Below, in pieces: positions 9,242 to 33,773 of a stretch of 33,773 nucleotides of DNA. Numbering within the stretch: position 1 is the first letter of the stretch; every line of letters starts with the position of its first letter. The notes below the pieces were generated by a model. That model was given only the letters and a program-made list of their open reading frames with translations, had not been told where the DNA came from and ran no database searches. Origin of the DNA: Methanothrix harundinacea (lineage in GTDB: Archaea; Halobacteriota; Methanosarcinia; Methanotrichales; Methanotrichaceae); NCBI GenBank assembly GCA_001509375.1, contig LGFT01000015.1, forward strand, positions 1 to 33,773. Direction: 5' to 3'. Position numbers and translations under genes: made by a program.

Positions 9242-9661
9242 ATGACGAAAAGAACTCGCGGAGAGGTCCAGCATATAAACCCCGAGGGGCTCTCAAAAAA
9301 TCCAGCCTTCACCCAAGTCGTCATCGTGGCCGGCCCGGCTAAGACGATCTATGTCGGGGGGCAGGATGCCGTCGACGCCTCGGGGAATATAGTCGGAGAG
9401 GGCGACATCGGACGCCAGACGGAACAGGTCTTGAAAAACATCCAGACGGCGCTAGAGGCCTGCGGCGCGGACCTCGGTAACGTCGTCAAGTGGAACGTTT
9501 ACGTGGTCGAAGGCCAGCCCCTCCAGGCGGGCTTCGAGGCGTTCATGAGGGTATGGGGCAGGCAGCCAAACCCGCCAGCGATCACAGCCGCCTTCGTCGC
9601 TGGGCTCGCCCGTCCGGAGTTTCTGGTGGAGATCGACGCCATCGCCGTGGTGATCGAGTAG
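9242..9661 (+). CDS. ridA: RidA (YjgF/YER057c/UK114) family deaminase
   Basis: The 139-residue protein from ATG 9242 (MTKRTRGEVQHINPEGL) has the family features: VGGQDAVDASGNIVGEGD, QTEQVLKNIQTALEACGADL, and a C-terminal ARPEFLVEIDAIAVV containing the signature Arg and Glu. RidA hydrolyses reactive enamine/imine intermediates from PLP enzymes and works as a soluble trimer. The frame is open for 25 more codons upstream, but GAGG lies about 9 nt before ATG 9242 and the extension does not resemble the family. A decayed second copy of its 3' half is at 31758-31905. Confidence 0.94.
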   Translation: MTKRTRGEVQHINPEGLSKNPAFTQVVIVAGPAKTIYVGGQDAVDASGNIVGEGDIGRQTEQVLKNIQTALEACGADLGNVVKWNVYVVEGQPLQAGFEAFMRVWGRQPNPPAITAAFVAGLARPEFLVEIDAIAVVIE

Positions 9662-30511: not shown

Positions 30512-31486
30512 CTACAGGAAGCTGTCCAAAGTACACTGGCGCCTCGATCTCGTCTCCCTCCTCTCGGATCGCGGTTTCGGGATGCTTGGAAAGACCGTTG
30601 GGAGGCTGTAACGCCTGGAGACCTCGTATATCCTCTTCAAGAGATCGGCTAGATAGGCGTTATCCTGCGGTCCTGAACCGAACTTGGGGCCAAACTGTCT
30701 TGCTGGATAGAGCTCTTCGTATCTCTTTACCAGCGCAGGAAAATGCTTTTTCAGGACGCCGAAGCACGCATCCCTCTGTTTTCCGCTGCTGGTGACCCTC
30801 AAGGGCTCTGGAATGACGTACTCGCATCCGTTCTCGGCGGACCTCGAAAACAAATGGTCCAGCTCTTCATCGGAATCCGAGATGAAGGGGAGCACGGGCA
30901 TCAGTATTATGCCGGTCTGTATACCGACATCAGATATCCTTTTCAAGGCCTTTAGTCGATTGAGGGGAGAGCACGTATAAGGTTCAAATATCCGAGCATG
31001 ATCTTGATTCAGGCTCGTCAGCGAGAAGGAGACGTTCACGAAGACGCCGGAATCGTTCAGCTCTTCTAGCAGGTCCAGGTCTCTCAGTACCAGGTCGGAC
31101 TTCGTCTGGATGAGAAGCGGTATCCCGTACTGGACGATCACCTTCAGAGACGACCTAATGATCCTCTCTTTCTGCTCTGCAGTTTCGCAGTCGTAGCCGT
31201 CCAGCAAGATCGCCTTGGTCTTGTCCAGCTCTGGAATGTTGCTCTTCAAGACCGAGACGGTGTTGGTCTTTATCTTGACCTCGTTCTCACGTATGAACTC
31301 GTTGTGGGGTTCGAAGCAGTACTGACATCTCTTGGAGCAGCCCATGTACGGTGAGAGCCTGTACTCGTAGACCTCCTTCTTGATGAGATCACGCGGGAGG
31401 AAGGCCCCAGCCTTTCTGAACGCCGAGGGCGTCTCGTACTTGGTATAGACGATATTCGGGTTATTCTCACCCAGCCGTGGAGTCAT
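30512..31486 (-). CDS. Radical SAM protein, SplB-like (COG1533)
   Basis: The 324-residue protein has the cluster motif CSKRCQYCF (Cys-x3-Cys-x2-Cys, about residues 50-58) within YRLSPYMGCSKRCQYCFEPH. Barrel strands follow: AILLDGYDCETAE, PLLIQTKSDLVLRDLDLL, VFVNVSFSLTSLNQDHARIF and GIILMPVLPFISDSDEEL. This pattern is that of the spore-photoproduct-lyase-like group, whose members mostly have unknown substrates. It lacks the C-terminal Cys needed for photoproduct repair as far as I can see. ATG 31486 has GAGGCGAG just upstream and overlaps a small upstream gene. Confidence 0.87.
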   Translation of the reverse strand: MTPRLGENNPNIVYTKYETPSAFRKAGAFLPRDLIKKEVYEYRLSPYMGCSKRCQYCFEPHNEFIRENEVKIKTNTVSVLKSNIPELDKTKAILLDGYDCETAEQKERIIRSSLKVIVQYGIPLLIQTKSDLVLRDLDLLEELNDSGVFVNVSFSLTSLNQDHARIFEPYTCSPLNRLKALKRISDVGIQTGIILMPVLPFISDSDEELDHLFSRSAENGCEYVIPEPLRVTSSGKQRDACFGVLKKHFPALVKRYEELYPARQFGPKFGSGPQDNAYLADLLKRIYEVSRRYSLPTVFPSIPKPRSERRETRSRRQCTLDSFL

Positions 31487-31669: not shown

Positions 31670-31757
31670 TCCTTCCTCGCAAAACTCGTTCGGGCAGCAG
31701 GTCAGGATCGTATCCGCCCCGGCCCGCTTGATCGACGTCAGCTATATCCAGCATCGC
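31670..31757 (-). pseudogene. Decayed fragment of the hemB 3' end
   Basis: This segment aligns with the true hemB end at 33684-33769. Over 31670-31742 there are 10 mismatches and one indel in 73 positions. The frame reads LTSIKRAGADTILT, where hemB has LTSIKRAGADMILT, then degenerates to CCPNEFCEEGF in place of YYAKEYARKE. There is no gene upstream of it to complete it. Confidence 0.8.
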
Positions 31758-31905
31758 TTTTTTGTCGTCGCCGGACAGCCCCTCCAGCCAGCCTTCGAGG
31801 GCCTTCCAGCGGGCCTGGGGCCAGCGTCCCGACCCACCGGCGATCACCGTCGCCATTGTCACCGGGCTCGCGCGCCCGGAGTTCCTGGTGGAGATCGAAT
31901 TATAG
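31758..31905 (+). pseudogene. Decayed, frameshifted ridA 3' fragment
   Basis: The plus strand reads FFVVAGQPLQPAFEGL in one frame, then in the +1 frame RAWGQRPDPPAITVAIVTGLARPEFLVEIEL and a TAG at 31903-31905. This parallels the C-terminal half of the intact RidA at 9242-9661 (VVEGQPLQAGFEAF and ARPEFLVEID). The 5' half is missing and one frameshift is present, so it is not functional. Confidence 0.8.
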
Positions 31906-32076
31906 TGAGATAATATGGCCTAGAATTCTATATAACTACTGCTTTAAAATTTCGATAGATTTTTAAGAGAATACATGGTAGGATCAATTGGCTTAAATCA
32001 TTCAACCTTACATCATAGCGGTCCTGATATCACTAATACTTGAAAGTGAGCATAAAAGAACAAATTGGAGGTTCCT

Positions 32077-32970
32077 TTGACGAATAACCCAACATTAAAA
32101 TTTGCCGTCGAAGCACTACTTAATAAGGCAAATTCCAGGGGAGACGCGGTCTTAGGAGCAACTGCCTTTAACAAGATGGTCTTCCTACTTTATAAAAGAT
32201 TGAAACGGAAGGGAAAACAATTAGACCTCAGATTGCCTTACTGTTGGTATTTATGGGGGCCATTTATAGCACACGCCGAATTTGAACACGAAGTAGGGGT
32301 TCCACTTGATTATTATGTTCCGAAGGGTGAGCATACTCGTGTAATCGATAATGTATCTGACGTAGAAATTCCTATCGCAGAGAAAAGATTAATAGAAAAA
32401 GAGATAGATAAAATGCTTGCCGAGTTTGATAATAATGGAATTATTAACCTAGATCTTTTGCTCAACCGCGCGTATGAACTTGCCCCATATGAGTTTCAGA
32501 AGGTGTTTAATCGAAGTTTCAGGCCTGAATTAAACAAGCTAAGGTCGTACTCGGTATCAAAAGAGGAGATTGAAGCTTACTTGGATAGACTTCTAGAGAC
32601 GTATCCAGAAAAAGAGATGGAAGAATTGTATGACGTTTTTCTTGAGTGGGATGATACATTTCGGCTTGCTCTCGAAAACGATACATCTCGCACATACGTT
32701 CTTGCAGAAGAATTCTGGGGAGTTTTTTGTAAACTATTACGAGTAAAGCAGCGTTATGGCGTCTCTAGAGATACGATTATCAATTGGTCGTTCAGCTTTA
32801 AAGAAAGTCTCCATCAATACGAAAACAAGCTCGAAAATGAACGAAATGATCTGCTGGGAATCCACTTTGAGAAAGAACAAACTGATGTGAAGGTCCAAAG
32901 GATCGTCGGTGATGTTATGGAGTTATCTCATAAAATTGCAATAGAATATAAACCGGTGAAGGAGGTCTGA
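32077..32970 (+). CDS. Possible antitoxin-like protein (Panacea/DUF4065-like outline), 297 aa
   Basis: The start is TTG 32077, placed 5 nt after GGAGG; an upstream TTG at 32065 overlaps that site. The N-terminal region includes AFNKMVFLLYKRLKRKG then LPYCWYLWGPFIAHAEFEHE, resembling in outline the (K)-hydrophobic-W-x-GP pattern of Panacea (DUF4065) antitoxin-associated domains. A long helical C-terminus follows (EKEMEELYDVFLEWDDTFR and so on). The gene is AT-rich, unlike the surrounding genome, and 4 bp separate it from a PIN nuclease. The family assignment is tentative; the pairing with PIN suggests toxin-antitoxin or defence. Confidence 0.6.
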   Translation: MTNNPTLKFAVEALLNKANSRGDAVLGATAFNKMVFLLYKRLKRKGKQLDLRLPYCWYLWGPFIAHAEFEHEVGVPLDYYVPKGEHTRVIDNVSDVEIPIAEKRLIEKEIDKMLAEFDNNGIINLDLLLNRAYELAPYEFQKVFNRSFRPELNKLRSYSVSKEEIEAYLDRLLETYPEKEMEELYDVFLEWDDTFRLALENDTSRTYVLAEEFWGVFCKLLRVKQRYGVSRDTIINWSFSFKESLHQYENKLENERNDLLGIHFEKEQTDVKVQRIVGDVMELSHKIAIEYKPVKEV

Positions 32971-32974
32971 CAAA

Positions 32975-33628
32975 CTGCCATACTTCCTGGATTCTAATGT
33001 ATTAATCGGATATGTATTTAGAAAGGCAGACATCTGGGGCGACCCTGCAAACGTAGTAGTTGAAGATGATGAGGAAAATAATTCAAGTACAGTTGTTTGG
33101 GGCGAATGCTTTGGCTCTTCAGAAGGTGGTAGATGCAACACTATACAAAAAAAGATAAGTCGGGAATTTAGGAGAGCAATCGCAAAATTAAATAGTGGAT
33201 TATCAAATGAAGAACTTTTAATGTTTGCTCGCGGTGAAAATTGGAGAATTTTGGGTATTCTTAAGAGTATATTTGATGAGCACAAAGGATATTCATCAGT
33301 GATATTAATCAAATTACTTAGAGATGTTCAACGAAGATACGATAAGGAATACATAGATAGATTCAACAAGCTTAAGGAAATTGTGACGATTCATAACAGA
33401 GAAAAACCATATTTAGAGATTCGCAAGCTCCTAGAAGAATTTATTGAAGATTGGGATGATATTCAGATTATTCTTGATGCGCATTATGTAGGAAACTTAA
33501 GTAAAAATATAATATTAATTACAGGAGATTACAATCATATAGTGCCGAACAAAAAACTTATTTGTACGCACACATCATTGGTAGATGTAAAAGGTCTAGG
33601 CGATTATAGGGCTAAGTCTATAATATAA
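32975..33628 (+). CDS. PIN-domain nuclease, probable CTG start, 217 aa
   Basis: PIN acidic residues are all present: Asp6 in YFLDSNVLIGYVF, Glu44 in VVWGECFG, Asp168 in IILDAHYVGN and Asp185 in LITGDYNHIV. These bind metal and cut RNA in VapC-type toxins; at 217 residues this one is longer, with a helical insert (about 60-165). ATG 33221 would delete Asp6 and Glu44. GGAGGT at 32961-32966 lies 8 nt before CTG 32975, the only codon in a sensible position, so a CTG start is likely. Low GC marks it as acquired DNA along with its partner. Confidence 0.75.
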   Translation: MPYFLDSNVLIGYVFRKADIWGDPANVVVEDDEENNSSTVVWGECFGSSEGGRCNTIQKKISREFRRAIAKLNSGLSNEELLMFARGENWRILGILKSIFDEHKGYSSVILIKLLRDVQRRYDKEYIDRFNKLKEIVTIHNREKPYLEIRKLLEEFIEDWDDIQIILDAHYVGNLSKNIILITGDYNHIVPNKKLICTHTSLVDVKGLGDYRAKSII

Positions 33629-33667: not shown

Positions 33668-33773
33668 TCAAACGCCTTCCCGCTCCTTCCTCGCATACTC
33701 CTTCGCGTAGTACGTCAGGATCATGTCCGCCCCGGCCCGCTTGATGGAGGTCAGCGCCTCGCGCATCGCCCGC
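33668..33773 (-). CDS. hemB: Porphobilinogen synthase, C-terminal end only
   Basis: The window ends within this gene. The visible 34 residues read AMREALTSIKRAGADMILTY and then YAKEYARKEREGV before TGA at 33668-33670, the typical HemB C-terminus (EALTSIKRAGADxILTYYA). HemB condenses two 5-aminolevulinates to porphobilinogen, feeding haem, cobamide and F430 synthesis in methanogens. A decayed copy of this end lies at 31670-31757. Confidence 0.88.
   Translation of the reverse strand, partial: RAMREALTSIKRAGADMILTYYAKEYARKEREGV

Follow-up and report, generated by a model that had tools for sequence, protein, structure and literature searches.

A pair of adjacent genes from Methanothrix harundinacea, here called A and B, probably constitutes a Panacea-type two-gene toxin-antitoxin or abortive-infection module, which would travel as mobile cargo, be coupled to other defence systems and, in haloarchaea, have been recruited as a partner of pAgo. 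We favour this reading because the adjacency of the two genes is kept at low identity, because B shows PIN homology together with the PIN acidic residues, and because the relatives include Panacea-carrying proteins that share the C-terminal domain of A. The occurrence of orphans of A only, the low GC content and patchy spread, a copy in a tailed virus and the defence contexts also point to such a module. It would give a testable role to two families of "hypothetical protein" across Halobacteriota, and would extend the Panacea network to archaeal viruses and to immunity.

The window, that is, the whole stretch of 33,773 nucleotides that was analysed, is one whole contig (G000:C23). The original observation of a gene pair was confirmed as real: A and B lie on the plus strand, separated by 4 nt, and both frames are open at the coordinates given in Table 1. 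The tight spacing and AT-richness claimed in the first-pass annotation were likewise borne out, with a GC content of 39% for A, 34% for B and 37% for the pair versus 57% for the rest of the window; no segment of the same size within positions 1-31486 fell below 49%. The candidate start codon of B is the CTG at 32975, located 8 nt past the Shine-Dalgarno-like AAGGAGGT. No ATG, GTG or TTG is found 5' of the first catalytic Asp, the list of open reading frames gives only a 135-aa frame from ATG 33221, and a standard start would leave B without the first two of its catalytic residues; the viral homologue of B, too, requires a CTG at the corresponding position. The sizes of A (297 aa) and B (217 aa) exceed those usual for toxin-antitoxin proteins, which was counted against the toxin-antitoxin reading.

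Table 1. Features of the A-B region, in window coordinates.
Feature	Position	Strand	Basis
Gene A, putative antitoxin/sensor, 297 aa	32077..32970	+	TTG start; Shine-Dalgarno-like GGAGG at 32067-32071; all-helical model; homologues
Gene B, putative PIN-domain ribonuclease (toxin), 217 aa	32975..33628	+	CTG start
Shine-Dalgarno-like AAGGAGGT of gene B, inside the 3' end of A	32959..32966	+	sequence
A N-terminal domain, about residues 1-118, outline "LLYKRLKRKG...LPYCWYLWGPFI", weakly Panacea-like	32077..32430	+	broad-family profile match
A C-terminal domain, residues 112-297, YP...YDvfLEWDDTFRLAL motif, common to Panacea-domain proteins	32410..32967	+	hhalign
B Asp6, first PIN acid, LDSNVLIGY motif	32990..32992	+	invariant in 11-member alignment
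B Glu44, second PIN acid, ECFG motif	33104..33106	+	invariant in 11-member alignment
B Asp162-Asp168, third PIN acid region, DIQIILDAH	33458..33478	+	D162 invariant, D168 at least 90%
B Asp185, fourth PIN acid, ITGDY motif	33527..33529	+	at least 90% conserved
Left repeat, 73 bp resembling the hemB 3' region, 85%	31670..31742	.	sequence comparison
Right repeat, inside the genuine hemB 3' region	33684..33755	.	sequence comparison

The pair is more than chance, because copies sharing about 17-45% identity occur across tens of genomes, among which its spread is patchy. The survey of co-occurrence that the first-pass annotation had proposed came out in favour of the pair: among 394 genomes of the phylum Halobacteriota, 30 of the 31 strong B loci (profile matches with E up to about 1e-14) have A as the gene immediately upstream, and the remaining one is a stop-containing fragment. 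In a class-level survey of 238 genomes, A was found in 10 and B in 6, mostly adjacent, and A was absent near all 30 generic PIN loci examined. Single-sequence searches of A and B against Pfam, NCBIfam, PHROGs, PADLOC and PDB produced no convincing match, a scan of genome contigs with the B sequence alone gave no match, and PDB sequence profile searches with either family gave chance-level matches only. A without B occurs in Halorussus (L018/L019), in Methanosarcina (L030) and at loci L120, L122, L123, L125 and L128, and none of the strong B matches was an intact B lacking A; beside the weakest B matches (L096-L099), A may be too diverged for detection. Such a distribution fits A as an antitoxin and B as a toxin, and is what would be expected if B needs A.

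Several of these loci have features of their own. On two Halorussus plasmids (L018, 5977-6927; L019, 5848-6777), A stands alone between the genes for an oligopeptide ABC transporter and a Rieske protein. The loci L120, L122, L123, L125 and L128, each with a B-less A, come from five genomes of one genus, and the same convergent neighbour is present in L120, L123 and L128. At L115 (948-1391), the place of B after an A homologue is taken by another PIN-like gene, which is smaller (147 aa); this suggests partner exchange. Kin of the L082 type matched neither plasmids nor phages.

PIN nucleases typically show the residue order D-x-N, E, D and TxD. Four acids in PIN order are present in B (D6, E44, D162/D168 and D185), as had been claimed for the 217-residue frame; across the 11 aligned homologues, no variation is seen at D6, E44 and D162, and D168, T183 and D185 are nearly invariant. 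The profile comparison that had been proposed as a check supported this assignment: a B-family profile built from 30 homologues matched a PF01850-type profile of ordinary PIN proteins over its N-terminal 48 residues (hhalign E=2.4e-4, score 31.7), far above the controls, which reached at most 15.6 in 40 column shuffles and 12.3 with the reversed profile. In single-sequence searches, B of the window had no Pfam match, and one haloarchaeal member of the family had a weak Pfam PIN match (E=0.039). In the structural check of the PIN fold, proposed at the same time, the top PDB match of the AlphaFold model of B (pLDDT 76, with the N-terminus and N-terminal strand poorly predicted) was VapC4 of Pyrococcus (Foldseek, E=0.5), and further VapC/PIN entries appeared within the top 50 matches, none of them individually significant. 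The lack of a significant Foldseek match for either the A or the B model, and the poorly predicted N-terminus of the latter, were counted against the toxin-antitoxin reading. Taken on its sequence, B is supported as a divergent, enlarged PIN nuclease, with a fold that is not structure-proven. PDC-S70 was not supported as the identity of B, since neither B nor its relatives gave a match at E<=1 in PADLOC-DB 2.0.0, a database that holds other PDC families and in which the inclusion of PDC-S70 is unconfirmed.

Gene A was less readily assigned. The window protein matched no Pfam family at E<=1 and so falls short of the PF13274 cut-off, which was again counted against the toxin-antitoxin reading, as was the marginal similarity of its N-terminal domain. 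This domain matched Panacea collinearly when the broad family was used, with marginal significance (E=0.008, score 20.8 vs a maximum of 16.9 in 40 shuffles), and no better than shuffles when the narrow family was used (E=0.14). The C-terminal halves of A and of the Panacea-domain proteins that pair with close kin of B, a region outside the Panacea domain, are homologous (hhalign E=3e-15, probability 98.5%) and have the motif YP...YD..L.WDD.FR.AL in common. SocA_Panacea was detected in all six A-position proteins tested (L075, L076, L077, L083, L084 and L094), at 33.6-45.1 bits vs the Pfam cut-off of 25.7, and the PIN genes of this Panacea-paired group are the closest kin of the window B, with up to 45% identity. 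The all-helical model of A (pLDDT 78) returned only spurious helical matches in Foldseek and no solved fold, and family library searches found no VapB-type DNA-binding antitoxin domain in A. Because its C-terminal half is homologous to that of the SocA_Panacea partners of B kin, and its N-terminal half shows a weak collinear match, A appears to be a two-domain helical protein that is best called Panacea-like; it may be a Panacea that has diverged strongly, or one in which the N-terminal domain has been replaced. The Panacea-like outline noted for the first gene at the outset was thus supported through its relatives and not by Pfam matching of the window protein alone.

The pair was found in several genomic contexts. 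The nearest relative of A (40%) is on an IMG/VR contig (L138) of an archaeal tailed virus, and viral scans with B or with alignments detected no virus besides this one. In this uncultivated virus, A-B (L138, 5986-7553) is carried as cargo in the head-tail cluster, flanked by head genes (maturation protease and major head protein) on one side and by neck/tail genes (tail completion protein and tail sheath) on the other. Methanoperedens relatives have A-B embedded in type I restriction operons, with hsdS on one side and hsdR on the other (L025, L028/L029 and L032); in one genome B is divided between two contig ends, and a further genome has a truncated A, with no B found. Copies lacking an evident defence island, namely L026, beside ribosomal genes, and L027, were counted against the toxin-antitoxin reading.

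In haloarchaea, A-B stands divergent to the Aga-REase gene, which is followed by short pAgo (PADLOC). A search of 294 haloarchaeal genomes with PDLC02417 demonstrated this adjacency at 27 of 27 haloarchaeal Aga-REase/short-pAgo loci, in 26 genomes, one further piece belonging to a split gene of G516. At loci of this kind (L020-L023, L069-L074, L085, L090 and L226-L243), A and B carry only the annotation "hypothetical protein" wherever annotation was seen, and the same layout is present on plasmid pNG600 of the culturable Haloarcula marismortui (L263). Haloarchaeal short-pAgo loci, pNG600 included, hence hold two extra genes that were missed by the defence library searched. A-B was absent at the Aga/pAgo loci of all eight Methanosarcinia genomes having them, among 238 searched, and the whole genome of the window organism has no Aga-REase match. 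In the B tree, the 14 pAgo-linked rows sampled all fall into a single clade (97/95 support; recovered in 98% of bootstrap trees), and B of the window groups with the virus copy and the Panacea-paired kin. Since all pAgo-linked B fall in one clade, the pAgo link probably arose once and was kept. It is quite conceivable, and we suggest tentatively, that A-B is an overlooked obligate partner of haloarchaeal short pAgo/Aga-REase, a Panacea-like/PIN guard or second effector that would fire when pAgo is triggered or blocked; the four genes would then make up a layered defence that descends from a free toxin-antitoxin module such as that of the window.

VapC toxins cut tRNA or rRNA. By analogy, B is predicted to be a toxic, metal-dependent ribonuclease of the PIN fold, which would cut translation RNA (tRNA or rRNA) and thereby stop growth. 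A, which is helical, Panacea-like and extended by a further C-terminal domain, is predicted to neutralise B by binding it directly, in the manner of Panacea antitoxins (PMC8832971). The predicted trigger is an infection or another insult that disturbs A, or the loss of the element, upon which B would be freed. The module may travel as cargo of viruses, plasmids and islands, and may be coupled to type I restriction operons in Methanoperedens and to short pAgo/Aga-REase in haloarchaea, where a functional pAgo link is likewise predicted and A-B may serve as a guard or second effector, or as an extension of pAgo immunity.

Other explanations account for parts of these data. A-B may instead be a two-component antiviral effector, in which A is not an antitoxin and senses an invader (a capsid protein, DNA end or guide complex) to activate the PIN nuclease. 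The large, two-domain architecture of A, whose conserved C-terminal WDDT domain is separate from the Panacea domain, as well as the association of the pair with pAgo, restriction systems and a virus, would suit such a sensor; however, orphan A and the lack of an intact orphan B suit a silencer better than an activator, and the Panacea domains tested to date neutralise toxins via direct binding (PMC8832971), so that we regard this explanation as unlikely. Plasmid and virus copies, AT-richness and the partial hemB repeat flanking the window pair would also be consistent with an addiction module that selfishly stabilises viruses, plasmids and islands and has no defence role. A pure stabiliser would not be expected, though, to be embedded repeatedly in type I restriction operons or to be paired constantly with haloarchaeal pAgo, and this explanation seems quite improbable.

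With regard to the haloarchaeal copies, it is possible, if somewhat doubtful, that A-B is part of short pAgo/Aga-REase itself, making a four-gene system, and that solo copies like that of the window are free-living relatives with a different job. The divergent adjacency at every haloarchaeal locus and the single clade of pAgo-linked B favour this proposal, but the Methanosarcinia loci indicate that pAgo is independent of A-B in that class, and the divergent arrangement may merely reflect stable joint inheritance. The proposal is compatible with the toxin-antitoxin module as the explanation for the window pair.

Among known systems, PanAT (PF13274; PMC8832971, PMC10440598) resembles A-B in being a two-gene operon with a nuclease-fold partner and in being known from archaea and phages; in addition, Pfam SocA_Panacea is present in relatives of A that occupy its position. 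Unlike in PanAT, A here has about 300 aa, a conserved C-terminal helical WDDT domain and an N-terminal domain that Pfam does not detect; its PIN partner is enlarged, and the haloarchaeal pAgo link is constant. VapBC shares the PIN nuclease with four acidic residues and the two-gene operon with the antitoxin-type gene first, whereas A has no AbrB, RHH, HTH or other VapB-like domain and the PIN protein here, at about 210-260 aa, contains an additional helical stretch that separates the Glu from the third acid. Haloarchaeal short pAgo with Aga-REase (PADLOC PDLC02417) has A-B divergently beside every locus examined, in contrast to the window genome, which lacks Aga-REase, and to methanogen Aga/pAgo loci, which lack A-B. 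If the guard reading is right, the CreTA guards of CRISPR-Cas (PMC9458426) would be comparable as a toxin-antitoxin module tied to immunity, also in haloarchaea; CreTA, however, is RNA-based and Cascade-repressed (PMC9458426), whereas A-B is protein-based and any regulatory link to pAgo is hypothetical. PDC-S70, a candidate defence gene (PMC12988326), encodes, like B, a mostly archaeal PIN nuclease, but is described as single-gene (PMC12988326). The first-pass annotation knew of no described system with exactly this pairing, which is not quite right in kind, since many toxin folds are neutralised by Panacea antitoxins (PMC8832971) and validated NetFlax pairs include PIN/VapC-like toxins and PanA (PMC10440598). 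It held for the protein family, the C-terminal domain of A, the enlarged PIN and the pAgo link, no description of which was found in the main texts of the literature searched, a body lying largely outside subscription journals and preprints.

The window pair lies next to hemB, which is on the minus strand with its stop at about 33668 and continues on contig C1, which the right end of the window overlaps perfectly over 99 bp. The first-pass annotation had claimed a likely integration site here, and the claim stood in part: a 73-bp stretch resembling hemB (85%) is repeated on the left, and gene content at the hemB flank differs between relatives (L162 vs L163), but no integrase and no exact attachment site were seen at this flank. 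The repeat and the variable flank fit a putative acquisition of genes beside hemB. A tRNA integration site was ruled out, the window being without tRNA. A 135-bp sequence at 31764-31898 is 77% alike to one at 9503-9636, and recurs near hemB in relatives, with two copies in L162 and one in L163. To the left of the A-B region, positions 30512-31486 encode a radical SAM protein with weak similarity to spore photoproduct lyase.
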